Shown in pieces: positions 7,111 through 30,965 of a stretch of 39,779 nucleotides of DNA. The notes under the pieces were generated by a model that saw only the letters and a list, made by a program, of their open reading frames with translations, was not told the origin of the DNA and did not search any database. Position 1 is the first letter of the stretch. Each line of letters begins with the position of its first letter. Both the position numbers and the translations under genes were made by a program. Source of the stretch: Streptomyces murinus (GTDB lineage Bacteria; Actinomycetota; Actinomycetes; Streptomycetales; Streptomycetaceae); assembly GCF_002154555.1 (NCBI RefSeq), contig NZ_MUNF01000087.1, forward strand, positions 1-39,779, written 5' to 3'.

Positions 7111-8598
7111 TCAGACCTCCGGATACCGGCGCGGTGTCCAGACGATCTCCTCGCCCGCACCCCGCCGTACCACCTGTGTCTGCGAGGAGCCGACCAGCAG
7201 GATCGTGCGCATGTCGACCTCGGCGGGGTCCAACTCGTCCAGCCGTACGATCCGCACCCGCTCTCCGGGGCCGCCCACGTCCCGGGCGACCACCACCGGC
7301 GTAGCCGGTGCCCGGTGCTCCAGCAGCAGTTCGCGCGCCTTGCCCACCTGCCAGGTCCGGCTGCGCGAGCCGGGGTTGTACAGGGCCAGCACCAGGTCCG
7401 CCGAGGCCGCCGCCCGCAACCGCTCCGCGATGACCTCCCACGGCTTGAGCCGGTCGGAGAGGGAGACGGCCGCGTAGTCGTGGCCGAGGGGAGCCCCGGC
7501 CCGCGCCGCGGCGGCGTTCGCGGCGGTCACGCCGGGCAGCACACGCACCGGCACGTCCTTGTACGCGTCCTGCGAGGCCACCTCCAGAACGGCCGTGGCC
7601 ATCGCGAAGACGCCCGGGTCGCCGCCCGAGACCACGGCCACCCGGCGTCCCCGCTGCGCCAGTTGCAGGGCGAACTCGGCGCGCTCGGCCTCGACCCGGT
7701 TGTCCGAGCCGTGCCGGATCTGGCCCGGCCGCCGGGGGACCCGGTCGAGGTAGGTGGTGTAGCCGACCAGATCGTCGGCGGCGGCCAGCGCGCCCCGCGT
7801 CTCGGGCGTCAGCCACAGCGGACCGGCGGGACCCGTTCCGACCACGACCACCTCGCCGTACTCCCGCACGGGCCGTTCGGCGTCCACCTGACTCGGCAGC
7901 ACGGCCACCGAGAAGTACGGCACCGACTCGGCTTCCACATCGGCCAGTTCGGCGACGCGCTCCCCGCTCATGGTGGCCCGCTCCACGTACCGGGCCTCAC
8001 CCAGCCGCCCCGAACCCTCCAGCGCGCGCCGGACCTTGGGGAAGCTGCGCCCGAGCTTCATCACCACCGCCACGTCCGTGGCGGCCAGCCGGGCGGTCAG
8101 CTCCTCCTCCGGCAGGGTGCCCGGCAGGATCGTCAGCACCTCCTCACCCTCGGCGAGCGGTGCGCCCAGACGGGCCGCGGCGGCCGACACGGAGGTGACC
8201 CCGGGGACGACCTCGGTGTCGTAGCGGTCGGCGAGCCGCTTGTGCATGTGCATGTACGAGCCGTAGAAGAGCGGATCCCCCTCGGCGAGCACGGCCACCG
8301 TACGGCCGGCGTCGAGATGGGCCGCCAGCAGGGCGGCCGCCTCGGTGTAGAACTCCTCCATCGCGCCCTTGTAGCCGCCCGGGTGGTCGGTGGTCTCCGT
8401 CGTGACCGGGTAGACCAGCGGCTCCTCGATGTGGTCGGCGCGGATGTGCTTCGCCGCGATCGAGCGCGCGATGGACCGGCCGTGCCGGGCGCTGTGGTAC
8501 GCGAGCACATCGGCCTCGGCGATCACCTCGACGGCCCGTACGGTCATCAGGGAAGGATCACCGGGGCCGAGGCCGACCCCGTACAGCTTGCCGCTCAC
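7111..8598 (-). CDS. cobIJ: Fused precorrin-2 C20- / precorrin-3B C17-methyltransferase
   Basis: A 495-residue fusion of two tetrapyrrole methylases. Residues ~1-240 are Cob[20 protein letters not shown], the [20 protein letters not shown] loop, then [21 protein letters not shown]. Residues ~245-495 are Cob[59 protein letters not shown], then [18 protein letters not shown]. Each half keeps its SAM-binding GxGPG and GDP loops. Such CobIJ fusions are well known in actinomycetes. Start GTG 8598 overlaps the cobH stop by 4 nt (GTGA), so translation is coupled. It is the last gene of the cobG-cobH-cobIJ operon and ends at a hairpin shared with the NiCoT gene. Confidence 0.96.
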
Positions 8599-9266
8599 TC
8601 TTCCTCACTCGCGATCGCGTTGAGCGCGGCGGCGGCGATGGCACTGCCACCGCGGCGGCCGCGCACCACCAGGTGCTCAAGGCCGGAAGGATGCGCGGCC
8701 AGGGCATCCTTGGACTCGGCCGCGCCGACGAAACCGACCGGAACGCCGATGACGGCGGCGGGCCGCGGACCGCCCTCCTCGATCATCTCCAGGAGGCGGA
8801 AGAGCGCGGTGGGAGCGTTGCCGACGGCGACGACCGCACCCTCCAGCCGGTCACGCCACAGCTCCAGCGCGGCGGCGCTGCGCGTGGTGCCCATCGTGGC
8901 GGCCAGTTCCGGGACGGCCGGGTCGGACAACGTGCAGAGCACGTCGTTGGCGGCAGGCAGCCGCTTACGGGTCACACCGCTGGCCACCATCTGCACGTCG
9001 CAGAAGATCGGCGCGCCGGCCCGCAGTGCCTCGCGGGCCCGGGCGACCACGGCGGGTGTGTGTGCCAGGTCCTTGACGAGGTCGACCATCCCGCAGGCGT
9101 GGATCATGCGCACCGCGACCTGGCTGACGTCGGCGGGCAGAGCGGTGAGGTCCGCTTCGGCGCGGATGGTGGCGAAGGACTGGCGGTAGATCGCCGCCCC
9201 GTCCTTCTCGTAGACGTGGGTGGTCACGGTGTTCTTCTCACTGCTCTCGGTCGTCTTGCGGATCAT
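8595..9266 (-). CDS. cobH: Precorrin-8X methylmutase
   Basis: Moves the C11 methyl to C12 of precorrin-8X to give hydrogenobyrinate. Of 223 residues. The sequence has the CobH/CbiC pattern: [31 protein letters not shown] with the catalytic histidine in the MIHACGM motif, [34 protein letters not shown], and [21 protein letters not shown] 9266 overlaps the cobG stop codon (ATGA), and its own stop overlaps the cobIJ GTG. This makes a tightly coupled three-gene operon. Confidence 0.96.
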
Positions 9267-10546
9267 GAGGTGATCGCCGCCAGGGCGGCGCCCATCCGGG
9301 CAGGGCCTGCTGCGGACGCGGTGCGCGTACTGCCGTCCGTCGTGGTCGCCGACAGGCGGTACCCGCCGTCCGGAATCGCGAGCACATCGACATGGGCACC
9401 ACGAGGATGCCCACAGCGCCGTTCGCAACCGGACCAGTACAGGGGGAGGGCGGAGCGGCCCGTCGCCTCCAACGCCCGCGCCGCGTCCGCCCGTACGTCG
9501 CCGTGTGCCTTGGCGCATCCGGGGCGGCCGACGCAGGCGCCCACGCGGAGCCAGGACGACGCGGGGTCGGTGACCAGCCCGGCGTCACGGAGACGTCCGA
9601 GCGACTCGACGCCCCGCGCGGCGATGGCGCCCGCGATGGGGACGACCACGCCACGCCAGGGGGTCAGCCGCAGCTCGGTGTCCGCGGCAACCGCCAACGC
9701 CTCCCACTGGAGGGCCGAGAGCCGTCCCAGGGGAACGTGTACGGACAGGGCTCCGCCCACGGCTCCCGGGGGCGGTCCGTCGGCCGAACCGACCGGCTCG
9801 GGACGGTCGTTCTGCTCGATACCCTCGGTCGTCAGCCGGTCACGGACCAGGCGGTCCAACTCGCCTTCCCGCAAGGGAAGGTCGGACACCCTCCAGGTGC
9901 GTGCCGCGTGCGACCGCGCGGCCTCCAGGAAGGTCTCGGCGGCCATCAGCGCCGCGCGTGGTGCGTCGGCGGCAGCCACCCGCACCGACCCGGGGGTGAG
10001 CCACGCTCCGCCGTCCTCGGTCGCGCGCACCAAGACGTCCGCGCCGAGGCCGGCCACATCACCGCGCCCGTCGTCCAGGGCGAACAGGAACCGGCCCGAC
10101 AGACCCCTGGCGGCATCGCTCGCGCACAACGCGGCGTCCAGGGCCGTCAGCCAGGGGCGTACGTCTCGTGAGCCCCCACCGTCGAGGCCGGACAGGGGAG
10201 AGGCGACGATGTTGCGCACCCGCTCGTGCTCGCGCGAGGGCAGCAGGCCGACCGCGTCCAACGCCTCCGCCAACTCCCCGCCGCACCCGGCCGCCAAACC
10301 ACGCAACTGCACATTGCCACGCGATGTCAGATGCAGGTCGCCGTCGCCCAGCCGCCGGGCGGCATGGCCGAGCGCCTCCGCCTGCCCGGTGGTCAGGATT
10401 CCGCCGGGAAGCCGGATACGGGCAAGGGCGCCATCGTCCGCCGTGTGCAGACGCAGCGCTCCGGGGCAGACATCGCCGCGGCCCCGCGCGGCCGGTGCGA
10501 CCTGGGGCGATGGGGGAAGGGCTGCCGTTGGCATGGCGGTGAGCAT
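9263..10546 (-). CDS. cobG: Precorrin-3B synthase (CobG, sirohaem/4Fe-4S reductase-like)
   Basis: Oxygen-dependent hydroxylation and lactone formation on precorrin-3A, the diagnostic step of the aerobic pathway. It belongs to the nitrite/sulfite reductase ferredoxin-like family. [25 protein letters not shown] and [14 protein letters not shown] form the first half-domain. The 4Fe-4S cysteines are in GACVGRPGC (C-x5-C) and SGCERRC (C-x3-C) near the C-terminus. About 427 residues from ATG 10546. In-frame ATGs at 10558, 10534 and 10606 are alternatives and none has a strong ribosome binding site. It is the first gene of the minus-strand operon and is divergent from cobN; the ~65 nt before the cobN riboswitch must hold both promoters. 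Confidence 0.93.
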
Positions 10547-10611
10547 ACCTACGATCATCAGCAATGTATGCCCCGCGTTGGTCCGACGACCCTTACTATG
10601 CTGCACAGTGG

Positions 10612-10732
10612 ATCACCTGATCCACGAACCGCCACCACGGCGACACGAGAGGAAGCCGGTGCGAATCCGGCGCGGTCCCGCCACTGTGAATTCGGCCCCG
10701 CCAGGCCGGATGAGCCAGGAACTCCCTTCCCT
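10612..10732 (+). promoter_or_regulatory. Cobalamin riboswitch ahead of cobN
   Basis: A textbook core lies at about 10649-10689: GAGGAAGCCGGTGCGAATCC, then GGCGCGGTCCCGCCACTGTG. The B12 box GATGAGCCAGGAACTC is at 10709-10724. The core is closer to consensus than the riboswitch at 738-882. About 80 nt separate the B12 box from the cobN start, enough for a ribosome-site-sequestering hairpin. It should repress cobN when adenosylcobalamin is abundant. Confidence 0.95.
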
Positions 10733-10810
10733 CGCCTTCGGCTTGCGCCGGGGGAGAGACCCATTCCCACACCGCCCGGGGCGCGGACCCCGAGGAAGGC
10801 CAGACGACGT

Positions 10811-14440
<3,630 letters not shown>

Positions 14441-14488: not shown

Positions 14489-14872
14489 CTACGGGCTGCA
14501 CCGGACACATCGGCCGTAGAGCAGCAGTGAGCCCCCTGTGCCGGCGCGCAGTCCTGTCAGACGAGTGATCCGTTCCACGGCCTCCCCCATGTCGGCGATC
14601 GCCAGATCCTGCACGTGACCGCACTCCTCGCACACGGCGTGGTGGTGCGGTTCGGAACTGACGCCATGGCGTTTGGGACCGGGACCGTGCACGGCGTGCG
14701 CCAGACCCACGTCCGTGAAGGTCTCCAGAGTGCGGTAGACGGTCGCCTGATCGAACGACAGACCCCGTTCCTGAAGCGCGGCGCAGACTTCGGCGGAGGA
14801 GTAATGCTGCCCGGACGTGGCCAGCAGCCTCAGGGTACACAGCCTGCTGGCCGTAGCCGAGGCGCGGGACAA
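14489..14872 (-). pseudogene. Fur-family metalloregulator lacking its native start
   Basis: DNA-binding metal sensor family (Fur/Zur/Nur). The winged-helix part is present ([19 protein letters not shown], then DQATVYRTLETFTDVGLAH, which carries the recognition helix). So is the metal domain: HHHAVCEECGHVQD with a C-x2-C structural zinc site, and C-terminal LLYGRCVRC with the second C-x2-C. About 124 recognisable residues. Reading upstream, the frame runs at once into antisense superoxide dismutase sequence; homology stops around 14856. No ATG or GTG with a ribosome binding site exists at the right place; TTG 14872 is the nearest start candidate. Only about the first ten codons and the promoter seem lost, so a functional protein from a chance start is possible. 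Subgroup and metal cannot be assigned. Confidence 0.75.
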
Positions 14873-15206
14873 GGAGACGTGGGGGTCGATCAACGGCCTG
14901 GAGAAGAACCTGGCCTTCCACCTCTCCGGGCACATCCTGCACAGCATCTACTGGCAGAACATGACCGGTCCGAAGGACGGCGGCGGCGAGCCCCTCGCCC
15001 AGGACGGCGTCGGTGACCTGGCCGACGCGATCACCGACTCCTTCGGCTCCTTCGCCGGCTTCAAGGCCCAGGCCTTCTACCTCCAGTACAAGAACCAGAA
15101 GGTCGACTTCATCGACGCCATGTGGGCCGTCGTCAACCGGCAGGACGTGGCCAAGCGCTATGCCGCCGCCAAGGAGCGCGGCGACAGCCTGCTGCTCAAC
15201 CCGTGA
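14853..15206 (+). pseudogene. Iron superoxide dismutase remnant (sodF-like), doubly deleted
   Basis: Remnant of an Fe/Mn-family superoxide dismutase. From about 14856 the text is typical actinomycete Sod[21 protein letters not shown], then [18 protein letters not shown] with one metal-ligand His region, and [19 protein letters not shown]. At 15071/15072 the sequence jumps from FKAQ straight to [13 protein letters not shown]. The family has ~50 residues between these, including the DAWEH motif that gives two metal ligands. The first ~60 residues, with the first ligand His, are also absent. The usual VVNWQD is VVNRQD here. With at most one of four metal ligands left it cannot be an active dismutase. 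The frame stays open to TGA 15204-15206. It runs head-to-head into the Fur remnant at the same junction. Confidence 0.88.
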
Positions 15207-16920: not shown

Positions 16921-17814
16921 ATGAAGAAAGTGAGCTTCGCCGAGTTCGGCGGTCCGGACGTCCTGCGCCTCACGGACGCCGAGGAGCCCCACGCGGGCCC
17001 CGGCCGGATACGCATCGCCGTACGGGCGGCGGGTGTGAACCCCGTCGACTGGAGGATCCGTGAGGGTCAGAAACTGGGGGCCCACCCCACCGAGTTGCCC
17101 TCCGGGGTCGGGCTGGACGCCGCCGGGGTGGTGGACGAGGTGGGCGAGGGCGTCGAAGGAGTCGAGATCGGTGACCATGTGTTCGGCGAAGGCTCCAGTA
17201 CCTACGCCGAGTTCGCCGTGCTGTCGGCCTGGGCCCGGATGCCCGAGGGCCTGACGTTCGAGGAGGCGGCCGGCTATCCCTCCGTGGTGGAGACCGCGCT
17301 GCGCATCGTGCGCGAGGTCGGTGTACAGCCCGGGCAGACGCTGCTGGTCAGCGGTGCGTCCGGGGGAGTCGGCTCGGCGGTGCTGCAGATCGCCCGCGAC
17401 CGCGGCATCAGGGTGATCGGCACCGCCGGGGCCGCGAACCAGGACTATCTGCGCGGCCTGGGCGCCCGCGCCACGACGTACGGCGAGGGCTGGGTCGAGC
17501 GGGTACGACGGCTCGGCCCCGTCGACGCGGCCCTCGATCTGGCCGGCTCGGGTGTGCTCCGCGAGCTCGTCGAACTGGTCGGCGACCCGAGGAAGGTCGT
17601 CTCCATCGCCGATCTCGGCGCGCCGGAGTTCGGCGTCCGGTTCTCCGGCGTGGCCGGGAGCGTACCGGACGCGCTCGCCGCGGCCGCCGACCTCATCTCG
17701 CGGGGGAGGCTCCACATCCCGGTCGAGAAGGCGTACCCGCTCGCCGAGGCCGCCGCGGCACACATCGACAGCCGGGCGGGCCACACGCGTGGACGCCGGG
17801 TCATAGTCGTCTGA
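16921..17814 (+). CDS. NADPH-dependent quinone-oxidoreductase-like MDR enzyme
   Basis: Zinc-free medium-chain reductase/dehydrogenase of 297 residues that would reduce quinones or enones using NADPH. The N-terminal GroES-like part contains IRIAVRAAGVNPVDWRIREG and a GLDAAGVVDEVGEGV stretch. The nucleotide-binding motif SGASGGVGSAVLQIA is at residues 144-158. No structural or catalytic zinc cysteines are present. The C-terminal AAAAHIDSRAGHTRGRRVIVV is typical of the QOR-like subgroup. ATG 16921 has no Shine-Dalgarno sequence. The divergent TetR gene and the operator between them suggest induction by a small electrophile. The natural substrate is unknown. Confidence 0.9.
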   Translation: MKKVSFAEFGGPDVLRLTDAEEPHAGPGRIRIAVRAAGVNPVDWRIREGQKLGAHPTELPSGVGLDAAGVVDEVGEGVEGVEIGDHVFGEGSSTYAEFAVLSAWARMPEGLTFEEAAGYPSVVETALRIVREVGVQPGQTLLVSGASGGVGSAVLQIARDRGIRVIGTAGAANQDYLRGLGARATTYGEGWVERVRRLGPVDAALDLAGSGVLRELVELVGDPRKVVSIADLGAPEFGVRFSGVAGSVPDALAAAADLISRGRLHIPVEKAYPLAEAAAAHIDSRAGHTRGRRVIVV

Positions 17815-17883
17815 GAACCGGCCGGGTGAGCGGCGCCCGAGCCTGCGGTCATGGGACCGGCCCGACGGTATCCGTACCGGACG

Positions 17884-18915
17884 CTACGCCCGCCGGACCA
17901 CGGGCACGGAGTCGCAGCCGCGGAGCCGGGCGTCCCGGCGGGCCCGGCCCGGGGACGCTCCGGCGCCCACCACCCGGCCGTCGGCGACGGCCAGCCACTC
18001 GCCCTGGGCAGGCTCCGTCGCACCGGACGGCCGGAGCGCACCGAGGATCGCGGGGTCGGGCTCCGCGCACGACGCGGGCGGTGTAGGCCGGGGCCGGCCC
18101 GCCCGCCATTCGGCGGTGGTGCGCTCGCCGCCCCGGACCCGCCGCCACACCAGGTGCTGCACCACGATCAGCGGTCCCAGCGCCGCCAGGAGCGGGAAGG
18201 CGTCGGTCAGCACCCCCCGCGCGAACAGCACGCTGACCACGCCGGACACCGCGAGTCCGACCGCGGCCGCGAGGATTCCGGCGGCCCGTCCGAACGCCTT
18301 GACCGCCGTCAGCGGGAAGAGCACCAGAAGCAGCAGGTCACCCAGGCCCAGCGCCACCGGCGGCTCCCCGCGCGTCACCGCGAGCAGCGGCGCGAACGGC
18401 AGTCCCATGACCTGCGCCGCGAACCGGTCCATGACCGAGGTGAGCCCGGTGGCCACCAGGTCGTAGCAGGCGAGCGCGCCCGCGAACCACGCCGCCTGCG
18501 CGGACCGCATCCCGCTCTGCGCCCACATGGTGGCGACCCCCGCCACCGCCACGACGAGCAGTACGTCGGTGAGCACCATCACGGCGAGCGGACGGCCGAG
18601 CAGGGCCAGGACGCCGTTGGCGGCGACCGCGGCCACCGCGATCAGCCAGGCCCGCCCGGCGCCGGTCAGCGGAGCGAGGGTGAACTGCAACGCCGTACAG
18701 AGCACCAGGCCGAAGACGGTCGCCACCGCGGCGCGCGGCAGGAACAGATAGAGCAGCGGAGCCGCCGCCACCACGAGGCACATCACGGCGATGTCGGGCA
18801 GCTCGTACCGGCCCACCGGGGGCCGGGGCATCCGCACCCGGTGGAAGTAGGCGGCGCTCGCCACCATGGCCACCAGGACACAGCAGTTGAGGCCGACCAG
18901 GGCGGGGGTGCTCAT
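17884..18915 (-). CDS. Nine-TM GxGD intramembrane aspartyl protease candidate (presenilin/SPP-like)
   Basis: Integral membrane protein of 343 residues. Nine hydrophobic segments are visible at about 4-23, 40-60, 61-82, 88-107, 109-131, 139-161, 186-204, 209-231 and 238-258. TM6 carries YD (Tyr151-Asp152) and TM7 carries GLGD (190-193). TM9 carries FPLL (240-243) at the place of the PAL motif. That is the layout of presenilin and signal peptide peptidase (MEROPS A22). The two aspartates are 41 residues apart, compared with about 46 in human signal peptide peptidase as I recall. The text after YD (GLTSVM, then MGLPFAPLL) also resembles the SPP block. The C-terminal tail (~303-343, GEWLAVADGRVVGAGASP) looks like the small DUF5678 module. 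ATG 18915 overlaps the upstream stop by 4 nt. Activity is inferred; PLL for PAL is a deviation. Confidence 0.72.
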   Translation of the reverse strand: MSTPALVGLNCCVLVAMVASAAYFHRVRMPRPPVGRYELPDIAVMCLVVAAAPLLYLFLPRAAVATVFGLVLCTALQFTLAPLTGAGRAWLIAVAAVAANGVLALLGRPLAVMVLTDVLLVVAVAGVATMWAQSGMRSAQAAWFAGALACYDLVATGLTSVMDRFAAQVMGLPFAPLLAVTRGEPPVALGLGDLLLLVLFPLTAVKAFGRAAGILAAAVGLAVSGVVSVLFARGVLTDAFPLLAALGPLIVVQHLVWRRVRGGERTTAEWRAGRPRPTPPASCAEPDPAILGALRPSGATEPAQGEWLAVADGRVVGAGASPGRARRDARLRGCDSVPVVRRA

Positions 18916-20378
18916 GCCGGGCTCCCGAGCGTCGCGGCGGCCTGGCGGACCGACTCGAAGGTGTGCTCGCGCAGATCGGCGCGGACCGGGCCGGTGGCCG
19001 GCATTCCGGCCGGGTCGTCATGGAGCACGATGCCGCCCAGCGCGAGGCCCGCCGCGGTGGCCCGGTCCTCCAGCCGCCCGAGCAGACCGGCACCGGTCCG
19101 GCGGCGGGTGAGGACGTGGAGCAGCGGCCCCCCGGACCCCTCCGCCAGGGCGTAGCGGGCGGGCAGCGGGATGTCGGGCTCCGCCTCCAGCAGTTCCAGC
19201 AGCGACCGGGTGGTCACCGCCCGGCTGGACGGTCCCGACCAGCGGCCGAGAATGAGCGAGGTCGCCGGCATATGGGCCAGTTCGCACTCCGGCGCGGTCT
19301 CGGGCCGCCGGACCAGGTCGCCGGTGTCGTAGCGCAGCAGCAGGGTGCAGTCCCGGTACGGGACGTACGGCGTCTGGACGATGACACCCACCCCGCCCGG
19401 CGGTGTCGGCTCCCAGGTCTGCGGGTCGAGCACCTCCAAGTGCCCGAACTCGGTGGTGTGATGCAGATGGCCCGCGCCGCAGACGGTACCGCCGGACGGC
19501 ACCGTCTCCGTCATCATGTACGAGCTGGTGATCCGGGCGCCGAAGGCCGCCTCCGCCCGCTTGCGCAGCGGTTCGGAGAGCACTTCGCCGCCGACGCCGA
19601 CCGACTCCAGGCCGAAGTCGGACGCCTGCCAGTCGTGCCGCTCCGCCTCCTCGACCAGGGCGGCCAGATAGGACGCCGCGACCGTGAGATGGGTGATCTG
19701 CGGGGCCTTGCCGCGCAGCCCGAGCGGAGCCGCGAGCCGGTCGAGCGTCACCGCCGGCTCCACGGTGCCGATCGGCACGAACGCCGCGCCGATCCGGGTG
19801 ACCGACTCCTCCACGTTGAGCAGCGGCAGCGTCGCTCGGGAGCAGCCCGCGTAGGCCATGCTGTGCCGGGGCCTCAGCCCCAGGCCGAGCACGGCGGACA
19901 CGGTGCTCATCGCGACCATGATCTCCACCTCGGCCCGCGAGAACCAGACGCTGGTCGGGGTCCCGCTGGTCCCCGTGGTGAGCGCCATCAGCGAGGGGAC
20001 CGACGCGGCGGAGACGAACGCGGCGGGCAGCCCGCGCAGGGCGGACTTGGGTGTGACCGGTACCTGTTCCCAGGTCTCCGGGGTGAGCGTGTCCGGGTCG
20101 AGGGACAGATCCTCGAAGGCCCGGCGGTAGTAGGGGGTGTGCCGGACGGCGGCGCGGGCGGTGGCCCGCAGACTGCGTGCGGTGACGGTGCGGCGTACGT
20201 CGGGATCGACGGCCCCGGACTGCCCGGGCAGCAGGACCGAGTCCTCTCCCGGCTCGCCGAACTCCGCCAGGGTCTCGATGAGATCGCGGGCGATCCGTTC
20301 GAGGTCCCCCGGACGGATCCGCCGGTTGCGCAGGATCGCCGTGCTGTAACGCAGCTGTCTGAAAGCCGTGCCGAACAA
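18912..20378 (-). CDS. PaaK / coenzyme F390 synthetase-like adenylate-forming enzyme
   Basis: Of 488 residues, ANL-superfamily relative of phenylacetate-CoA ligase and F390 synthetase, expected to activate a carboxylate as acyl-AMP. RAAVRHTPYYRRAFE at ~75-89 is typical of the PaaK group. The phosphate-binding loop is TTGTSGTPT at 134-142. GVGGEVLSEPLRKRAEAAFG lies at 261-280 with the TE pair in YMMTE at 287-291. RYDTGDLVR at 349-357 holds the ribose-binding Asp, and LGRWSG at 377-382 stands at the hinge. The usual GR..D hinge reads GRWSG, so the thioester half-reaction may be altered. The start is TTG 20378, 5 nt after AGGAGG. It lies 59 nt after the 22-residue peptide gene and overlaps the membrane protease gene by 4 nt, so all three form one operon. 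The substrate is unknown. Confidence 0.85.
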   Translation of the reverse strand: MFGTAFRQLRYSTAILRNRRIRPGDLERIARDLIETLAEFGEPGEDSVLLPGQSGAVDPDVRRTVTARSLRATARAAVRHTPYYRRAFEDLSLDPDTLTPETWEQVPVTPKSALRGLPAAFVSAASVPSLMALTTGTSGTPTSVWFSRAEVEIMVAMSTVSAVLGLGLRPRHSMAYAGCSRATLPLLNVEESVTRIGAAFVPIGTVEPAVTLDRLAAPLGLRGKAPQITHLTVAASYLAALVEEAERHDWQASDFGLESVGVGGEVLSEPLRKRAEAAFGARITSSYMMTETVPSGGTVCGAGHLHHTTEFGHLEVLDPQTWEPTPPGGVGVIVQTPYVPYRDCTLLLRYDTGDLVRRPETAPECELAHMPATSLILGRWSGPSSRAVTTRSLLELLEAEPDIPLPARYALAEGSGGPLLHVLTRRRTGAGLLGRLEDRATAAGLALGGIVLHDDPAGMPATGPVRADLREHTFESVRQAAATLGSPA

Positions 20379-20437
20379 GTACGCCTCCTGGTTCCTGGAC
20401 TGGGAATCCGACTCCCGGTCCAGGCCGGGACCGTTCG

Positions 20438-20506
20438 TCAGGCCATGCTGGCGAACATCGCCGCGGTGAGCGTGCTGAAGGCGTACTTGATGTAGTGCTT
20501 GACCAT
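20438..20506 (-). CDS. 22-residue membrane-like peptide, first gene of the protease/adenylase operon
   Basis: Encodes MVKHYIKYAFSTLTAAMFAS followed by MA and TGA. GGGAG lies 7 nt before ATG 20506, and AAAGGGAG is one of the best ribosome binding sites in the window, which argues for real translation. Residues 1-7 are basic (K3, H4, K7) and residues 8-22 are hydrophobic or small, so it could span or insert in the membrane as a single helix. There is no cysteine, so lanthionine-type chemistry is excluded. It is too short to be a signal peptide for anything: the frame stops 59 nt before the adenylate-forming gene. Likely roles (inference): substrate of the downstream intramembrane protease, a peptide signal, or a scaffold modified by the adenylating enzyme. 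A pure leader peptide for attenuation is the main alternative. Confidence 0.68.
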   Translation of the reverse strand: MVKHYIKYAFSTLTAAMFASMA

Positions 20507-20680
20507 GATGGATCTCCCTTTTTCAGGCCGCTGAGAGGGCGGCTGGGCTCCGCTGGTGCACTCCCGGCTAGAGCAGCCGTTCGATGAACAAGAGGCTAGA
20601 TCAAGGGAGTTGGTGGCTCAATGGAAACGCTGAACCTGAACCACGGCGTCCGCATGCGCCCCGCCGGAATCGAACACGGG

Positions 20681-20859
20681 CTAGGGCTTGTCTGACAATT
20701 CCCGTCGTCGCCCGGAGGGCGGCCGCGCGGCGTCAGGTGCGTGCTCTCGGGGTGCCGGGCGTAGGCCCTCGTACTGGACGTACTTGGGTCTGCGCCCGGT
20801 GCCGCGAGAGTGCGTGCATGGCGTCGCGCGGCAGACGGGAATTGTCAGACAGGCCCTAG
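20681..20859. mobile_element. 179-bp MITE-like palindromic-ended element
   Basis: The 26-bp ends (20681-20706 and 20834-20859) are inverted repeats with one mismatch; each starts with CTAGGGC and contains TGTCTGACAATTCCCGTC. CTAG at both outer edges may be a 4-bp target duplication, as used by some IS5-type elements. The interior has further GC-rich complementary pieces and no coding capacity. I recognise this end sequence as a common dispersed repeat in Streptomyces genomes. Its right-hand CTAG provides the TAG stop codon of the small membrane protein gene at 20856. Confidence 0.85.
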
Positions 20860-21137
20860 TCCGCCCCGCTCGTCTCCCCGGCGGCCCCGGACCGGGCGCG
20901 CCGGCGATTCAGCAGGCCGCCTCCCACGATGACCAGTCCGATGGCGACGACCCTGGCGGCCCCGTAGTAGCCGGTCGCCGGCTCCTCCGGGGTGCCGGGC
21001 AGCCGGAGGGAGACCCATAGCGCCGCGAGACCGCCGAGGACGATCAGCGCGACGGCCCCCCACACCCCGAGGTCCGCCCACCACGGCACCGGACCGTGCC
21101 CCTGGTCGTCGCTCCGCTCAACACCTTTGTCTGGCAC
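20856..21137 (-). CDS. Small two-TM membrane protein, unknown function
   Basis: Protein of 93 residues with two hydrophobic helices: about 25-47 (WGAVALIVLGGLAALWVSL) and about 58-78 (YYGAARVVAIGLVIVGGGLL), joined by a short loop PGTPEEPATG. A polar N-terminus and an RRRARSGAAGETSGAD tail follow the positive-inside rule. GTG 21137 has GGAG 7 nt upstream. It follows the GH38 gene by 64 nt on the same strand and could be the last gene of the glycan operon, or separate. Its TAG stop lies in the terminal CTAG of the MITE, so insertion may have trimmed or altered the original C-terminus. I recognise no family. Confidence 0.72.
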   Translation of the reverse strand: MPDKGVERSDDQGHGPVPWWADLGVWGAVALIVLGGLAALWVSLRLPGTPEEPATGYYGAARVVAIGLVIVGGGLLNRRRARSGAAGETSGAD

Positions 21138-21201
21138 GGTGATTCTCCGGTTCGCGGCTGGTGAAGGTCGCTCAGGAAGACGAGGATCCGGTCCGGGTGG
21201 T

Positions 21202-24200
21202 TCACCTGGACCGGCGCCGCAGCCGCAACGTCATCAGCTCGAACGGCCGCAGACGCACCGCGATCCGGTCGCCGTCCCGCCGCGGTGCCGCCGCCTCGGG
21301 CAGGGGCCGCTCCAGCAGGTCGGTCACCGTGACCCCGGCGACCTCGAACCCGGCGGTCAGCGTGGCCCGGGCCCGGCCGCCGTGGGCCTCGTGGAAGCGC
21401 ACCACCACATCGCCGCTGCCGTCGTCGGCCAGCTTCACCGCCGTCACGACCACCGCGTCCTCGTCCACCGACACCAGCGGCGCGACCTCCCCGGCGCCGG
21501 TCACCACCCGCTCGGGCACATTGATCCGCCAGCCCTCACGCACCGCGTCGGCGATGTCCGCGCCCGGCACCAGCGCGTGCCGGAAGCGGTGCAGCCCCTG
21601 GTCCGTCTCCGGGTCGGGGAAGCGCGGGGCGCGCAGCAGCGACACCCGGACCGTCGTGGTGGTGCCCCGGTCGCCGTCGCCCCGGACTGCCCGGGTCACA
21701 TCATGGCCGTACGTCGAGTCGGTGACGACCGCCACGCCCCAGCCCGGCTCCTCCAGATGGACGAAGCGGTGGTTGCACGCCTCGAACCGGGCCGCCTCCC
21801 ATGAGGTGTTGGTGTGGGTGGGCCGGTGGAAGTGCCCGAACTGGGTCTCGGACGCGTACCGTTCGGCGTGCACGTCCAGCGGGAAGGCGAGCTTGAGGAA
21901 CTTCTCCGTCTCGTGCCAGTCCACCTCGGTGTCCAGCACCAGCCGCCGCTCACCCGCCGCCAGCGACACCACCTGGGTGACCCGGGAGGAGCCGAAGGAA
22001 CGGACGATCCGCACCGACGCGCCGTCCTCGCCGGGCGCGACCGACTCGGCGTCGGTGAGGTCGGTGACGGTGTTGCGGTAGAACTCGTCCACGTCCCAGG
22101 CATCCCACATGTTCGGGAAATCCGGGTGCAGTTGGAGGAGGTTCGCGGCCCGGCCGGGCGCGACCGTCTCCCGGTCGCCCTCGATGTCGTACGCCGAGAC
22201 GACCAGACCGCGGCCGTCGATCTCGATGCGCAGCAGACCGTTGTCCAGGACGTGCCCGCCGCCCTCGCGGGACGCCAGGCGGGTACGGCCTTCGGTGGTG
22301 GGGGTGGCGGCGGCGCCGGCCGGTACGCCCGCGCGGGCGTGCGGGGCCGAGTTGAAGACCAGCGGCGTGCCGCCCTCGCCCGCCAGCGCGCGCTGGGCGG
22401 TCTCGATGATCCCGTTCAGTTCCCGGGCGATGCGCCGGTAGGTCGCCCGTGCCTCGCGGTGCACCCAGGCGATGGACGAACCCGGCAGGATGTCGTGGAA
22501 CTGGTGGAGCAGCACCGTCTTCCAGATCCGGTCCAACTCCTCGTACGGGTAGGGGAGTCCGGTCCGTACGGCCGCTGTCGCCGCCCACAACTCGGCCTCG
22601 CGCAACAGGTGTTCGCTGCGCCGGTTGCCCCGCTTGGTCCCGGCCTGGCTGGTGAGGGTGGCGCGGTGCAGCTCCAGGTACAGCTCGCCGACCCACACGG
22701 GCGGCTCGGGGTACTCGGCCTCCGCCTTGTCGAAGAAGGCCCGCGGGGTCTCCCACACCACCCGCGCCGAGCCCTCCAGATCACGCAGCCGGGCGGCCTT
22801 GGCGACCATCTCGCGGGTGGTGCCGCCGCCCCCGTCGCCCCAGCCGGTGGGGGCGAGCGAGTGACGGGCGACGCCCTTGTCCTTGAAGTTGCGGGCGGCG
22901 TGCGCGATCTCGCTGCCCTTCATCGAGCAGTTGTAGGTGTCGACGGGCGGGAAGTGCGTGAAGATACGCGTTCCGTCGATGCCCTCCCACTGGAAGGTGT
23001 GGTGCGGGAACGTGTTCGTCTGCGACCAGGAGATCTTCTGCGTCAGCAGCCGGGTGGCGCCCGCCGCCCTGATGATCTGCGGCAGTCCGGCGGCGAAGCC
23101 GAAGGTGTCGGGCAGCCAGGCCTCGTCGTTCTCGATGCCGAACTCGTCCAGGAAGAACCGCTTGCCGTGCACGAACTGCCGGGCCATCGCCTCCGAGCCG
23201 GGCATGTTGGTGTCCGACTCCACCCACATGCCACCGGCCGGCACGAACCGCCCGTCCGCCACCGCCTTCTTCACCCGCGCCCACACCTCGGGCCGGTGCT
23301 CCTTGACCCAGGCCCACTGCTGCGCCTGGGACATGGCGAACACGAAGTCAGGTTCGTCCTCCAGCAGGGCGGTCATGTTGGACGTGGTCCGGGCCACCTT
23401 GCGCACGGTCTCGCGCAGCGGCCACAGCCAGGCGGAGTCGATGTGCGCGTGCCCGACGGCGCTGATCCGGTGCGCGGAGGGCACGGCGGGCGCGGACAGG
23501 ACACCGGCGAGCTGTTCACGGGCGCGGGTCGCCGTGCCGTTCACGTCCTGGAGGTCGACGGCGTCGAGCGCCCGGTCCACGGCGCGCAGGATCTCGTAGC
23601 GGCGCGGGGAGTCCACCGGCAGCTCGGCCATCAGCTCGCCGAGCACCTCCAGATCGATCACCAGCTGCCACACGGTCTCGTCGAAGACCGCGAGATCCAT
23701 CCGGGCCAGGGTGTACTGCGGCGCGCTGCCCGCGGTCTCCTTGTCACCCAACCGCGTGGGCAGGAAGGGGTGGTAGTCGAGGATGACGGGGTTGGAGGCG
23801 GCCTCGATGTGCAGCCGAACCTCCTCGCCGCCCGCGACGGGCGCGCCGACGCGCACCCACTGGTTGCGCGGGTTGAGGCCCTTCACCGGGCTGCCGTCGG
23901 GGCGGTAGACCAGGCCCTCGCACTGGAAGCCGGGCATGTTCTCGTCGAAGCCGAGGTCCAGGAGCGCCTCCACGGTCCGCCCGGCCCACTCCTCGGGCAC
24001 GGTGCCGGTCACCCGGAACCAGCTGGTGCCCCACGGAGCACCCCACCGGGCGCCCACCCGGACCGGCTCCGGCTCGGCGGCCAGCCCCTCGGCGACCGGC
24101 ACGGGCTCGCCGGGCGCGTGCCACACCGCGACATCGAGGGGGACGGACTCGGGGTACACGGCGGGGCGGACGCGCTCGTCGAGGACGCGCTTGAGCCGGG

Positions 24201-24228
24201 CTTCGACCAGACTGCGGTCGTCATGCAT
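21202..24228 (-). CDS. GH38 alpha-mannosidase, cytosolic
   Basis: Of 1008 residues. Removes alpha-linked mannose by the retaining GH38 mechanism. The N-terminal ~250 residues are the family's accessory beta region. The catalytic domain starts at AVGHAHIDSAWLWPLRETVR, with zinc ligands His262 and Asp264. The nucleophile is Asp374 in WLPDTFGFAAGLPQI. The AGGMWVESDTNMPGSEAMAR stretch and the C-terminal beta domains (ending LRPFELMTLRLRRRS) are as in the Man2C1/cytosolic bacterial subgroup. No signal peptide, so it acts inside the cell. GGAG lies 8 nt before ATG 24228. It follows the GH85 gene by 59 nt. In this operon it would trim high-mannose arms from imported N-glycan fragments (inference from neighbours). 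Confidence 0.93.
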   Translation of the reverse strand: MHDDRSLVEARLKRVLDERVRPAVYPESVPLDVAVWHAPGEPVPVAEGLAAEPEPVRVGARWGAPWGTSWFRVTGTVPEEWAGRTVEALLDLGFDENMPGFQCEGLVYRPDGSPVKGLNPRNQWVRVGAPVAGGEEVRLHIEAASNPVILDYHPFLPTRLGDKETAGSAPQYTLARMDLAVFDETVWQLVIDLEVLGELMAELPVDSPRRYEILRAVDRALDAVDLQDVNGTATRAREQLAGVLSAPAVPSAHRISAVGHAHIDSAWLWPLRETVRKVARTTSNMTALLEDEPDFVFAMSQAQQWAWVKEHRPEVWARVKKAVADGRFVPAGGMWVESDTNMPGSEAMARQFVHGKRFFLDEFGIENDEAWLPDTFGFAAGLPQIIRAAGATRLLTQKISWSQTNTFPHHTFQWEGIDGTRIFTHFPPVDTYNCSMKGSEIAHAARNFKDKGVARHSLAPTGWGDGGGGTTREMVAKAARLRDLEGSARVVWETPRAFFDKAEAEYPEPPVWVGELYLELHRATLTSQAGTKRGNRRSEHLLREAELWAATAAVRTGLPYPYEELDRIWKTVLLHQFHDILPGSSIAWVHREARATYRRIARELNGIIETAQRALAGEGGTPLVFNSAPHARAGVPAGAAATPTTEGRTRLASREGGGHVLDNGLLRIEIDGRGLVVSAYDIEGDRETVAPGRAANLLQLHPDFPNMWDAWDVDEFYRNTVTDLTDAESVAPGEDGASVRIVRSFGSSRVTQVVSLAAGERRLVLDTEVDWHETEKFLKLAFPLDVHAERYASETQFGHFHRPTHTNTSWEAARFEACNHRFVHLEEPGWGVAVVTDSTYGHDVTRAVRGDGDRGTTTTVRVSLLRAPRFPDPETDQGLHRFRHALVPGADIADAVREGWRINVPERVVTGAGEVAPLVSVDEDAVVVTAVKLADDGSGDVVVRFHEAHGGRARATLTAGFEVAGVTVTDLLERPLPEAAAPRRDGDRIAVRLRPFELMTLRLRRRSR

Positions 24229-24287
24229 ACGGGATGCTCCGTAGGTCGTGGGTCAGGTCGTAGGTCAGCTAATGGACCGGCGGTCGG

Positions 24288-26306
24288 TCACCTGGGGTGG
24301 GTGACGGCCGAGGGCGCGGACGAGGTGTACAGCTCTCCTACCGCCCGGACCTCGATCCGTACGGCGGGCTCGCCCGGCGCCGGTGTCTGGCCGCCGGTGA
24401 AGTACGCCCGCTGGCCGGTACCGCCCAGGAAGCCGCGGGTGCCGTCGGGCAGCACACGGTGCAGGGTGTAGTGGCGTACCGTGCCGGGCGCCGGATGCTC
24501 CCAGGCGAGGCGCAGATCGCCGCCGGACGCGGCGGTGACCCGCAGGCCGGAGGGGGCGGCCGGGGTGTCGATGCCGTCGTGGACGCAGAGGCCGCCGAGC
24601 CGCCAGCCCACCGGGCCGCCGCCGGTGGCGGTGAGCCGGACGCCGAGGGCGTGCACGGTCCCGTACAGGCCGGAGAGACGTACGACCGAGGTGCGCCAGC
24701 CGTCGCCCGACCCGGCCGGCACGGGCAGATAGGTGTACGGCGGCGCGCCCCCGGCCGCATCCGGCTCGGCGGTCGCCACGGCCAGCTCGACACGGACCGC
24801 CCCGGTGTCCGTGCGATGGGTCAGCTCGACGACCGTGTCGGGGCTGATCGGCAGCCGGGTCGCGTACAGGTCCAGTTCGGCGGGACGGTCGAGCGCGCCG
24901 GTCACCAGGACGCTGCTGCCGCCGCGCCAGGCGTCCGCGAAGTCGAAGGCGACGGAGGGCCGTTGGCCGTGGGAGCGCACCACCCAGCGCCGGGAGGGCA
25001 GCCGGTCCTGGAGCCCGAGGTGGTTCCAGGGGCGCTCGGAGACGGCCTGGCCGTCCTCGTACCAGCGCAGTCCGTGGCCGGTGTTGAAGACGGTCGCGAA
25101 CGGCAGCGCGGCGACGGTCGACCGGTCGGCGACGGAGAGGGCCGGGGCCCGCCAGCTGTCGGCGGTGTCGGGACGGGACGGATCGAGGGAACGGCCGGTC
25201 CAGAACCGGTCGTCGGCGGCGTGGAAGTCCTCCGGGGTGTGGTCGGCGGGCAGGTGGCCGCGGGTCCACTCGGGCCGGTACAGGCCGAGGGAGGCGATGT
25301 GCGCGCGGTCGGTGGGCACGATCGCGTCCCAGTCCACCGAGGTGTTCCAGCCGCCCGACTCCACATCGACTCCGGCCCACAACGCGTAGCGGTCGCGCCC
25401 CAGTTGTACGGCCTTCTGTCCGGAGGCGGCGAGCGAGGAGGCGCTCCAGCGGAAGTCGACGAACATGTCGTCGGCGGCCTGGAAGAAGGCCTGGTTCTGT
25501 CCGTTCAGCGCGCCCTGCCAGCTGACCGAGCCGTTCACGGTCATCGCGTCGTACCAGGTGATCCGCTGTCCCGCGGCCGTGGCGAGCCGCTTCAGCTCCT
25601 TGACGAAGCCGAGCATGTCGGCGCCGAGGGCGCTGTTGCCGCCGCCCGTCTCGGCGTTGACGAACCAGCCGTCGAAGCCGTGGGCCGCTGCGACCGCCAC
25701 GAGCTGGGCGGCGAGCGGGTAATGACCGGAGGCGTCCTTCCGTACCAGGTCGCGGGTCCACTGGAGCTGTCCGCCGTAGGCGGCGGGCGGCAGGAAGACA
25801 TTGCCGAGGACGGGCACGCCGTGCCGGTGGGCGGCGTCCGCCACGGGGGCGTTCGGGGCGAGGATCAGGCCCTCACCGGAGGACCCGCCCCAGAACACCA
25901 GCTCGTCGATGTACGCCCAGTGGGTGAGGGCGTAGTAGTCGGCGGTGGTCGAGCCCTGGGACGGGTTGGACGAGGTGGGCCCGAACGAGACCAGGGACTG
26001 GACGCGGGCCTGTCCGGCGCGGGCGGTGGTGTTCACCGGGGTCGGGGTGAAGCGGGGCGCGAGCGGGACGGAGGCGGCGTTGAAGGGGAGATCGGCGTCG
26101 GTGGCGGCACGCCAGCTCTTCAGACTGCGCCAGGTGATGCCGGGCCCTGGGCTGCCGGAGGGCAGGGAGTCCGGGTACCAGTAGGAGGCGTACGGCTGGA
26201 GCGCGGCCGTCGCCTTCGGGGCGGCCTGGGCGGTACCGGTGGGCAGCGCGTGCAGGAACGCGGCGGCGGCGCCGGCGAGCAGGACGGTGCGTCTGGTGGG
26301 GTTCAC
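24288..26306 (-). CDS. GH85 endo-beta-N-acetylglucosaminidase, Tat-exported
   Basis: Of 672 residues. Cuts between the two GlcNAc residues of the N-glycan core by substrate-assisted catalysis. The N-terminus MNPTRRTVLLAGAAAAFLHA with cleavage near AQA is a twin-arginine signal, so the enzyme is secreted. The GH85 domain contains YIDELVFWGGSSGEGLILAP, GVPVLGNVFLPPAAYGG, and the catalytic pair Asn217/Glu219 in FDGWFVNAET. WYDAMTVNGSVSWQGALN follows. C-terminal beta-sandwich regions (from ~390) include a fibronectin-like PSGLRVTAASGGDLRLAWEH module and end at LYTSSAPSAVTHPR. GTG 26306 overlaps the GH5 stop by 4 nt (GTGA). It is the only exported hydrolase of the locus, so it probably does the first, extracellular cut. 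Confidence 0.94.
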   Translation of the reverse strand: MNPTRRTVLLAGAAAAFLHALPTGTAQAAPKATAALQPYASYWYPDSLPSGSPGPGITWRSLKSWRAATDADLPFNAASVPLAPRFTPTPVNTTARAGQARVQSLVSFGPTSSNPSQGSTTADYYALTHWAYIDELVFWGGSSGEGLILAPNAPVADAAHRHGVPVLGNVFLPPAAYGGQLQWTRDLVRKDASGHYPLAAQLVAVAAAHGFDGWFVNAETGGGNSALGADMLGFVKELKRLATAAGQRITWYDAMTVNGSVSWQGALNGQNQAFFQAADDMFVDFRWSASSLAASGQKAVQLGRDRYALWAGVDVESGGWNTSVDWDAIVPTDRAHIASLGLYRPEWTRGHLPADHTPEDFHAADDRFWTGRSLDPSRPDTADSWRAPALSVADRSTVAALPFATVFNTGHGLRWYEDGQAVSERPWNHLGLQDRLPSRRWVVRSHGQRPSVAFDFADAWRGGSSVLVTGALDRPAELDLYATRLPISPDTVVELTHRTDTGAVRVELAVATAEPDAAGGAPPYTYLPVPAGSGDGWRTSVVRLSGLYGTVHALGVRLTATGGGPVGWRLGGLCVHDGIDTPAAPSGLRVTAASGGDLRLAWEHPAPGTVRHYTLHRVLPDGTRGFLGGTGQRAYFTGGQTPAPGEPAVRIEVRAVGELYTSSAPSAVTHPR

Positions 26307-27559
26307 GAGCGGGTGCCTCCTCGGGGGGTGCGGAGTACCTGGTCGGGTGTGACGACTTCGGTGAGGGCGCGGGCGGCCAGATGGTCCTGGTCGGCCGCCC
26401 GGGTGTCGAGGACGGTGGTGGGGCGGGCGCCGTCGGCGGTCAGCCGGAAGAACGCCTCGAAGACATCGCCGCCGGGGGCGCAGCGGGAGCGGGTGGCCGG
26501 GTCGGCGGGCACGGTGAGGGCGGTGGTGCGCGGAGCGGGTGCGTAGCTGTGTTCGCGGGCCGCGCGGGACAGCGCGCGGGCGAGGTCCTTGGGGCGGCGG
26601 TCGTTGGTCAACAGGCCGAGGCTGTACTCGAGTTCGGGGAAGTCGGCGAGGTCGCGGGAGACGTCGTGGGAGCACCACCAGGTGATGCCCCACAGATCGG
26701 GGCAGTCCAGCGCGCTGGCGACGGTGGCCTCGGTGAAGGCGGCGGCGTGCTCGGCGGGGACGAGGGGGGCCGGGGCGCCGACCTCCTGGAGCCAGACGGG
26801 CCGGTGCGGTTCCTCGGCCCAGGCCTTGCTCAGCTCGATCAGATACGCGGCGTGGTGCTCGGCGGCCACGGAGGTACGGCCGTACCGCTGGGCGGTCCCG
26901 TTGAAGACCCAGGAGTGGACGGCGGTGAGGGCGCCGCGCCGGGCCGCCTGGGCCGGGGTGAAGGGCATGTCGTCCTGGTACCAGGTGGCGTCGTACTCGG
27001 CGTGCAGATGCAGCTTCCCGGGTGCGCCCTTCTCGCAGGCCGCGAGCATGCGTTCGAGCCAGGCGTCGATCTGGTCGGCGGTGGCCCGGTCGGGGTCGGG
27101 GTGGGGGCCGGCGGAGAACTGGTTGACCTCGTTGCCGAGGGTCATGCCGAGGAAGTTCGGCCGGTCGGCGAGCGCGGCGGCGAGGGTGCGCAGATAGGCG
27201 GCCTGGCCGTCCAGCACCTCGGGGTCGGTGAAGAGGTTGCGGCGGTGCCAGGTGCGGGTCCACGCGGGCAGGAAGTCGAAGCTGGACAGGTGTCCTTGCA
27301 GGCCGTCCACATTGACGTCGAGCCCGCGTTCGGCGGCGGCGTCGACCAGTCGCACCAGATCCTCGACGGCGCGCGGGCGGATCAGCGCGCGGTCGGGCTG
27401 GAAGTACGGCCACAGCGGGAAGACCCGGATGTGGTCGAGGCCGAGCGCGGCGACGGAGTCCAGATCGGCGCGTACGGCGTCGAGGTCGAAGTCGAGCCAG
27501 TGGTGGAACCACCCTTGGCTCGGGGTGTAGTTGACGCCGAAGCGCACGGCAGCAGGCAT
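26303..27559 (-). CDS. GH5-type beta-mannosidase candidate (N-glycan core)
   Basis: Of 418 residues, TIM-barrel glycosidase of clan A. It starts RFGVNYTPSQGWFHHWLDFD; the acid/base is Glu144 in LGNEVNQF and the nucleophile candidate is Glu259 in VWLQEVGAP. ITWWCSHDVSRDL provides the barrel-end tryptophans. The opening and the NE/QE motifs resemble the GH5_18 group that, in bifidobacteria, splits Man-beta-1,4-GlcNAc left after N-glycan trimming (from memory of that literature). No signal peptide, so cytosolic. It is coupled to the GH85 gene by a 4-nt overlap. With GH85 and GH38 alongside, the core beta-mannoside is the most likely substrate; a general beta-mannanase or other GH5 activity is the alternative. 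Confidence 0.82.
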   Translation of the reverse strand: MPAAVRFGVNYTPSQGWFHHWLDFDLDAVRADLDSVAALGLDHIRVFPLWPYFQPDRALIRPRAVEDLVRLVDAAAERGLDVNVDGLQGHLSSFDFLPAWTRTWHRRNLFTDPEVLDGQAAYLRTLAAALADRPNFLGMTLGNEVNQFSAGPHPDPDRATADQIDAWLERMLAACEKGAPGKLHLHAEYDATWYQDDMPFTPAQAARRGALTAVHSWVFNGTAQRYGRTSVAAEHHAAYLIELSKAWAEEPHRPVWLQEVGAPAPLVPAEHAAAFTEATVASALDCPDLWGITWWCSHDVSRDLADFPELEYSLGLLTNDRRPKDLARALSRAAREHSYAPAPRTTALTVPADPATRSRCAPGGDVFEAFFRLTADGARPTTVLDTRAADQDHLAARALTEVVTPDQVLRTPRGGTRS

Positions 27560-27601
27560 ACGGGGGTCCTTGCGGAAGTGGGGTCGGAAGGGGGCCCGGG
27601 A

Positions 27602-28506
<905 letters not shown>

Positions 28507-28510
<4 letters not shown>

Positions 28511-29451
28511 GCGTCCTCCCTCCGGTCGGCGCGCAGGACGAGCAGCATCAGGACGACGGTGACGGCGAAGACGACCAGGGAGATCGCGGAGGCGTAACCC
28601 ACCCGGCCGGTCAGCCCGGTGCCGGTGCGCTGGACGAGCATCACCAGGGTGGTGTCCTCGCCCGCCGGACCGCCGCTCGGCGAGGCCAGCAGATACACCT
28701 CGGAGAACACCTTGAAGGCGGAGACCGAGGAGAGCGCGGCGACCAGGACCATGGTGGAGCGGATGGCCGGCACGGTCACGGTGAAGAAGCGGCGGACCGG
28801 GCCCGCGCCGTCCACGGCGGCGGCCTCGTGCAGCTCGCGCGGCACATTGGCGAGCGCGGCCAGATAGATGATCATGTAGTAGCCGAGGCCCTTCCAGACC
28901 GTGACGGCCATCGCGCTGAGCAGGAGCAGCCACTGGTCGCTGAGGAAGCCGACCTTGCCCACCCCGATCGTCTCCAGGAGCGAGTTCACCAGTCCGCGCT
29001 CGTCCAGCAGCCACACCCAGATCAGGCCCACCACCACGATCGAGGCGACGACCGGGGTGTAGAAGGCGGACCGGAAGAAGGTGATGCCGGGGATGTTCTT
29101 CTGCACCAGCAGGGCGAGCAGCAGCGGCAGCAGCACCAGCGCCGGGACGACGCCGACGACGTACAACGCGCTGTTGCGCAGGCCGATCCAGAACATGTCG
29201 TCGTGCAGCAGCTCGCGGAAGTTGGCGAGGCCGACGAACTGCCCCGGGATCAGGGTGCGGCGGTCGGTGAAGGCGTTGAACACCGTGGAGACGAACGGAT
29301 AGAGGATGAACACGCCGGTGATCAGCAGCCCCGGGGCGGCGAACAGCCAGGGACTGGTGGACAGTTGGCGCCGTATCCGGATCGCCGGGCGCCGCTCGGG
29401 GCGCCGCGCCGGACGCGACGGGCGCGTCCGGGAGACGGTCGAGGTGGCCAT
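28507..29451 (-). CDS. Sugar ABC transporter permease, MalF-like
   Basis: Of 314 residues. It starts with a basic tail (ATSTVSRTRPSRPARRPERR), then TM1 PWLFAAPGLLITGVFILYPF. The coupling motif is ELHEAAAVDGAGPVRRFFTVTVP, and GLGYYMIIYLAALANVPREL precedes it. Six helices as in MalF/CUT1 permeases. ATG 29451 is 6 nt after the stop of the binding-protein gene and its own stop overlaps the next permease gene. With its partner it forms the heterodimeric channel of the importer. The permease order MalF then MalG after the binding lipoprotein is standard for the family. Confidence 0.93.
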
Positions 29452-29457
29452 GGTGCG

Positions 29458-30747: not shown

Positions 30748-30900
30748 GGTGACACTGCTCCCTTGCGGCGTCTGCGGCTGGTTTCGGAAAGGACCATGCA
30801 CGCCGTCTTCGGGGAAAGTCAATGGATTTGGAGTCGCTAAAGTCGAGAACGGGACATTAGTACAGGTCAGAGCGGTGCCAAGCGGGACTTGTCAGCCGTA

Positions 30901-30914: not shown

Positions 30915-30924
30915 GCTGCTGCCA

Positions 30925-30938: not shown

Positions 30939-30965
30939 CGATCACTGCCGAGAAAAGAGGCGAAC

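Follow-up and report, generated by a model that had tools for sequence, protein, structure and literature searches.

What could join a 22-residue membrane peptide, a putative adenylate-forming enzyme and a probable nine-helix membrane protein in one bacterial operon? The question is raised by a 39,779-nucleotide (nt) stretch of Streptomyces murinus DNA (contig NZ_MUNF01000087.1, hereafter the window), in which a first-pass annotation had proposed that the peptide is cut within the membrane by a presenilin-like protease and a carboxylate activated by the enzyme. Across 26 intact loci, this three-gene cassette is conserved and real. Our preferred reading, to which we give a probability of about one half, is that it is a minimal cassette, probably mobile, for the maturation of a ribosomal micropeptide of a pheromone-like kind or resembling ribosomally synthesised and post-translationally modified peptides (RiPPs).

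The three open reading frames (ORFs) lie on the minus strand of the S. murinus window where the first-pass annotation had placed them, the 22-residue peptide and the 4-nt (ATGA) overlap of the enzyme and membrane-protein genes included, and the YD and GLGD motifs that it had read in the membrane protein are present as Y151-D152 and G190-L-G192-D193. The features of the cassette are as follows (TM, transmembrane segment; SPP, signal peptide peptidase).

20507..20630, minus strand: conserved upstream region or 5' leader of the cassette, TTGA...TCTA...GTTCATCGAAC...AAGGGAG, from an alignment of 7 of 12 type-A loci
20438..20506, minus strand: peptide gene, 22 residues, ATG start with AAGGGAG upstream; type A, MVKHYIKYAFSTLTAAMFASMA; likely precursor or substrate
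20379..20437, minus strand: spacer from peptide to enzyme, holding the stem-loop CCTGGACCGGGA...TCCCAGTCCAGG; fold z score of -2.5 in the window
18912..20378, minus strand: gene for a PaaK-like enzyme of the ANL superfamily, 488 residues, TTG start with AGGAGG upstream
17884..18915, minus strand: membrane-protein gene, 343 residues; presenilin/SPP-like product with probably nine TMs, carrying YD, GxGD and a TM9 proline; N-out/C-in by prediction
18460..18465, minus strand: codons Y151-D152, first putative catalytic aspartate, invariant in 26/26
18337..18348, minus strand: codons G190-L-G-D193, with the second putative catalytic aspartate; both glycines and the aspartate invariant in 26/26
18193..18195, minus strand: codon P241, the TM9 proline, invariant in 26/26
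17887-18003, minus strand: DUF5678-like C-terminal tail, residues 305-343, in type-A membrane proteins only

Conservation and distribution of the cassette

When the genus was searched with the membrane protein, 13 of 199 genomes were positive (own genome counted), and a PaaK-like gene adjoins the membrane-protein gene in 12 of these, namely the window and 11 of the 12 others; in the exception, G019 (locus L021), only a membrane-protein remnant is left. An enzyme search at E <= 1e-30 yielded at least 23 of 392 genomes, overlapping the previous 13, with the membrane-protein gene downstream of the enzyme in 23/23, one copy (G557, locus L057) being decayed. The 26 intact loci comprise 22 of these 23 genomes, window included, together with loci L027, L032, L033 and L078; three decayed copies are excluded. 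Twenty-five belong to Streptomyces and one to Embleya, the genus being partly taken from named records. All 26 have the trio in one gene order, so that the linkage beyond this strain on which the first-pass annotation had made its proposal depend does exist.

The loci fall into three peptide types, A (12 loci, including the window), B (7 loci) and C (7 loci), which coincide with groups of the enzyme. For 13 loci, the distances between enzymes and those between membrane proteins are correlated (r 0.97), and the cassette seems to move and diversify as one unit. A phylum-level draw of 296 genomes yielded the own genome only, and a class-wide profile search of 296 genomes recovered two short C-terminal matches besides the own locus. 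With the type-B enzyme as query, the best matches in a class-level draw of 384 genomes, own locus aside, were 6e-27 or worse, which is the range of ordinary PaaK, whereas intact cassette enzymes match the window enzyme at 1e-69 or better.

Streptomyces griseofuscus DSM 40191 (L027), probably a close relative of the window strain, carries the cassette with a membrane protein 96% identical to that of the window. Copies also occur in the plasmid records Streptomyces sp. NBC_01324 plasmid unnamed2 and NBC_01435 plasmid unnamed1 (PLSDB) and in Embleya sp. NBC_00896, whose record PLSDB likewise lists as a plasmid. Outside the Streptomycetaceae, Nonomuraea gerenzanensis (L034, 11381-12970) has an apparently decayed copy, in which the enzyme is reduced to its C-terminal half and the membrane-protein frame is broken ahead of GxGD, where a sequencing error is possible; its 11.85 Mb record, listed in PLSDB as a plasmid, is probably a chromosome. 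Among 17 neighbourhoods (the window, L027, 12 stretches from the genus search, L032, L033 and L034), the only families found in at least three loci were those of the cassette itself, the enzyme in 16 and the membrane protein in 9. These counts run low with our crude gene caller: by tblastn, each of the 12 genus-search stretches has the membrane protein, and so does L027. The cassette is probably mobile. A phage origin was considered and rejected, as the enzyme had no match in 50,697 phage records and the membrane protein none in the viral contigs scanned.

The trio is not described in the open-access literature searched, a coverage outside which most subscription journals and preprints fall, and the decRiPPter paper contains, in its main text, none of the terms sought (PMC7794033). 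Such cassettes are easily missed: the PLSDB gene table of NZ_CP108387.1, itself incomplete, enters the enzyme and a "hypothetical protein" and lacks the peptide gene.

A micropeptide under purifying selection

An ORF of 22-29 residues lies directly upstream of the enzyme gene in 26/26 intact loci. Its product reads MVKHYxKYAxSTLxAxMFxxM[AV] in type A, MSAIKxxAKQFKYVxGAMTxVFFxxCSxS in type B and MSAIVSTLKHTKYxMGSxAxVLFxxCxS in type C, and a gapless alignment of the three leaves K-Y invariant together with an F ten residues past the Y. In the window, the peptide has a basic N-terminus and its last 15 residues are hydrophobic. Ratios of nonsynonymous to synonymous polymorphism (pN/pS) of 0.31 (type A), 0.21 (type B) and 0.16 (type C) place the peptide under purifying selection. 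Because it is found in every intact locus, in three types and with pN/pS of 0.16-0.31, the ORF is far beyond chance occurrence. All 26 loci present what is sought in RiPP-like systems, a short conserved precursor gene under amino-acid selection beside (candidate) maturation genes.

The peptide keeps to its enzyme. A degenerate DNA pattern built from the known peptides, which covers type A alone and was run regardless of the enzyme, matched nine of 384 genomes, once each, and these are the nine with a type-A enzyme; no solitary type-A peptide appeared in the remaining 375, and a reversed control pattern gave no match among the 384. A motif scan of the three decayed loci found no peptide, the L057 stretch being short. 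We also considered a lipoprotein signal peptide and rejected it: a Cys stands near the end in types B and C, yet as we read them the residues ahead of it do not make a lipobox, and in type A there is no Cys.

A stem-loop between peptide and enzyme

Minimum-energy folds of the first 90 nt or less from the peptide stop towards the enzyme start place a strong stem-loop after the peptide gene in 25/26 loci, which form three groups and are not independent. In the exception, L055, an imperfect inverted repeat occupies the same site and is not used by the minimum-energy fold. The spacer folds with z < -2 in 24/26 loci (mean -3.3; exceptions L054 and L055), and the position of the stem-loop is kept while the stem sequences vary between peptide types. 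The element is likely to be either a partial terminator or stabiliser that gives an excess of peptide over enzyme, or an attenuator. Upstream of the peptide, about 110 nt are conserved among the seven type-A loci aligned. A known RNA element was sought and rejected, with no Rfam match at the gathering threshold in 17600-21300.

A presenilin-like membrane protein

The 26 membrane proteins aligned are 26-96% identical to that of the window (the L033 row ends 20 residues short of its ORF), with type A and types B/C sharing 26-33% identity. Residues invariant in all members include D41, Y151, D152, G190, G192, D193, K206, P241, G247, P248, E264 and R265, and as the x of GxGD 12 members have L and 14 have M. 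YD falls in the sixth and GxGD in the seventh predicted segment in 26/26. The aspartates are 41-42 residues apart, and P241 follows D193 at a distance of 48 residues (12 members) or 54 (14 members). Loss of D152 and D193 from homologues, which the first-pass annotation had named as decisive against its proposal, is thus not seen in any member.

Hydropathy yields nine hydrophobic segments, which were placed inside the nine helices of an AlphaFold model built from three sequences (predicted local distance difference test score, pLDDT, 46.9), so the two counts are not independent. The weak likeness of the C-terminal tail to DUF5678 (E 0.24) falls in the best part of this model, with mean pLDDT 70-80. 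Lysine plus arginine average 14.6 on the predicted inner side and 2.5 outside, with the same direction in 26/26, and in every member positive charge puts loops 1, 3, 5 and 7 and the C-terminus inside. If the protein has nine helices, it is predicted to be N-out/C-in, the SPP-type topology. The peptide, with its basic N-terminus, should lie N-in, the orientation of an SPP-type substrate. The topologies of SPP and presenilin are reversed, which may account for substrates of opposite orientation (PMC7768045).

In a profile search of 177,635 Protein Data Bank (PDB) sequences, the presenilin-1 fragment 2kr6 ranks first, with GLGD aligned on GLGD, at values short of significance (E 0.032 for the 13-sequence profile, 0.037 with 26). 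The other aspartyl family considered, A24 type IV prepilin peptidases, was rejected: an A24 protein from the own genome gave P 0.69 against the membrane-protein profile in hhalign, and no A24 Pfam model was listed.

A PaaK-like enzyme

Pfam assigns the enzyme to AMP-binding only, at 31.4 bits (cut-off 29.9); its NCBIfam matches, all far below cut-offs, are mostly PaaK-type, and its best PDB matches are PaaK-type ligases. The ATP/AMP-binding motifs TTGT, MTE and RYxTxD are invariant in the 13 cassette enzymes aligned, as expected of an ANL core. An N-terminal extension of about 60 residues, partly conserved, lies beyond the PaaK match and might bind the peptide or the membrane. An AlphaFold model from three sequences reached pLDDT 39.3. 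Ordinary phenylacetate catabolism was considered and judged unlikely, given that the cassettes have no neighbour families in common and that the enzymes lack the A10 lysine discussed below. In the same family, NatL2 forms an ester by way of an adenylate (PMC7204872).

Proposed mechanism and points against it

In the maturation reading, the first gene would supply a peptide of 22-29 residues, in excess over the enzyme owing to the stem-loop. This peptide may enter the membrane N-in/C-out in the manner of an orphan signal peptide, by virtue of its basic N-terminus and some 15 hydrophobic residues, and the GxGD membrane protein, with its SPP topology, would cut it within the membrane and release a short peptide. 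The PaaK-like enzyme could then modify or activate this peptide or attach a small acid to it, the end product being a signal or a small bioactive peptide.

A number of results weigh against this reading, most of them on the side of the protease. The PAL motif, which the first-pass annotation had named as part of the A22 signature, is missing: P241 is followed by A, L or V (14, 11 and 1 of the 26 members) and then by Q, L or M (14, 11 and 1), giving LL in the window protein. Moreover, in the 13-sequence alignment P241 sits on the second proline of presenilin PALP, so that its equivalence to the P of PAL is in doubt. The charge-based topology presupposes nine helices. Full presenilin-1 chains reached only E 0.31 with the 13-sequence profile and were not among the matches listed with 26 sequences, an alignment that sets YD on YD scores -2.5 bits, below any threshold, and a profile of types B/C alone found no PDB match. 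In hhalign, the presenilin-1 fragment scored a probability of 19% (P 0.0012, against P 0.62 for the reversed fragment as control). Pfam gave nothing above cut-off for the window protein, no A22 model was among the matches listed for the 26 members, and the SPP Pfam family was found in none of 21 genomes. Foldseek on the model of pLDDT 46.9 returned no match at E <= 0.001; at rank 29 stood 4hyg, the archaeal presenilin homologue, with an E of 4.7 that does not count as evidence. Given these weak PDB and hhalign scores and the lack of an A22 Pfam match, we describe the protein as presenilin-like in motif and layout without assigning it to A22. Of the features of A22 proteases, the invariant YD and GxGD stand; the presenilin likeness is the best in the PDB without being significant, and PAL and a Pfam A22 match are lacking.

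The remaining points concern the enzyme and the surroundings. The C-terminal A10 lysine is present in 0/13 cassette enzymes, as opposed to 13/13 ordinary PaaK relatives (drawn from 20 loci of the class-level type-B enzyme search). A C-terminal lysine is named as a feature of these enzymes, Lys422 in PaaK and Lys418 in NatL2 (PMC7204872). An invariant arginine, R466, lies near the missing position and could stand in for it. As the usual catalytic lysine is absent, acyl-adenylate formation is not secure, and the idea that an adenylase activates a carboxylate is weakened to that extent; the enzyme does retain its ATP-binding motifs. Finally, no transporter, regulator or immunity family is common to as many as three of the 17 cassette neighbourhoods.

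The maturation reading has a fuller version, which we hold only tentatively. The cassette would here represent a new class of ribosomal peptide, in which a precursor resembling an orphan signal peptide is cut in the membrane by a bacterial protease of presenilin/SPP type, from a family outside Pfam, and the new C-terminus, perhaps the invariant Phe, is activated or capped by the lysine-less PaaK-like enzyme to give a short hydrophobic signal. Cleavage at this Phe would fit a phenylacetate-type pocket.

Alternative explanations

The stem-loop, besides peptide excess, also fits an attenuator, and hence the peptide ORF may instead be a regulatory leader, with translation or ribosome arrest acting together with the stem-loop to control both downstream genes and the peptide itself being no product. 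A small ORF and stem-loop right before the enzyme gene in 25/26 folds would be as expected of such a leader, as would the conserved region upstream, and arrest peptides can be hydrophobic. We nevertheless consider this explanation rather improbable, since within each type conservation extends over the full length of the peptide, K, Y and F are kept across types whose spacers are unrelated, the ORF shows no run of one regulatory codon, and no Rfam match supports it.

The doubts over presenilin lead to another alternative, in which the membrane protein is a transporter, receptor or scaffold that uses YD and GxGD otherwise, and action on the peptide or a small acid is left to the enzyme. Marginal similarity, the missing PAL and a model of low confidence speak for it; the aspartates, the GxGD glycines and the TM9 proline, invariant despite the low identity of type-A to type-B/C members, and the place of presenilin-1 at the top of the PDB search argue the other way, and we regard it as unlikely. 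That the peptide is a small membrane toxin neutralised by the other two genes, in a toxin-antitoxin or competition module, strikes us as very improbable: the peptide is indeed tiny, hydrophobic and cationic, the distribution is patchy and includes plasmid records, and decayed copies exist, but we know of no precedent for a toxin module with these enzymes, and PADLOC returned no match for the enzyme or the membrane protein, by which a known defence protein was also rejected.

Surroundings of the cassette in the window

Between the leader region and an ORF at 20856-21137 lies a roughly 166-bp element (20687-20852) that has terminal inverted repeats and is similar to a miniature inverted-repeat transposable element; its 19-base end, CTGTCTGACAATTCCCGTC, has 48 copies in the own genome, mostly as inverted pairs with one spacing, and the element is not at the corresponding place in S. 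griseofuscus. On the plus strand, ORF 14805-15206, which we take to resemble parts of an iron superoxide dismutase, apparently lacks a start and an internal stretch, and its string YLQYKNQ was not found in 17 kb of L027; its minus-strand neighbour, 14489-14947, is presumably Fur-family-like. Going by ORF reading alone, positions 21202-32012 and 124-14440 hold a probable glycan-degradation locus, with alpha-mannosidase-like and other hydrolase-like genes, sugar transport and a LacI-like regulator, and also cobalamin/cobalt genes.

Comparison with known systems

GxGD intramembrane proteases are known mainly from human presenilin, SPP and one archaeal homologue. The function of the Haloferax GxGD enzyme is listed as unknown in one account (PMC9263693). 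The cassette offers a candidate bacterial relative that is genetically tied to one candidate substrate of 22-29 residues; if the maturation reading is right, this would provide an enzyme together with its natural substrate, in a host that is tractable, and would add an undescribed enzyme set to the peptide signalling and peptide natural products of Streptomyces.

With PaaK-family ligases, such as phenylacetate-CoA ligase and the ester-forming NatL2 type, the cassette enzyme shares an ANL core with TTGT(S/T)G, MTE and RYxTxD, from which it departs by its N-terminal extension, an altered hinge and the loss of the A10 lysine. Agr-type systems (AgrD/AgrB) and the enterococcal pheromones (lipoprotein signal peptide and Eep) pair a tiny membrane-active precursor with a membrane protease, a plan that the cassette shares, with its protease a candidate only. 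Their proteases are cysteine or metallo enzymes, whereas the candidate here is of the aspartyl GxGD type; the cassette also adds a PaaK-like enzyme, and has no conserved two-component or other regulator family nearby. Presenilin, SPP and the archaeal homologue PSH (family A22) have in common with the cassette protein YD followed by GxGD in membrane segments, a TM9 proline and, as predicted for the cassette protein, nine TM helices and the SPP-type topology. Unlike them, the cassette protein has neither PAL nor a Pfam A22 match, comes no closer than E 0.03, and belongs to Streptomycetaceae, where a single tiny peptide gene is its constant companion.

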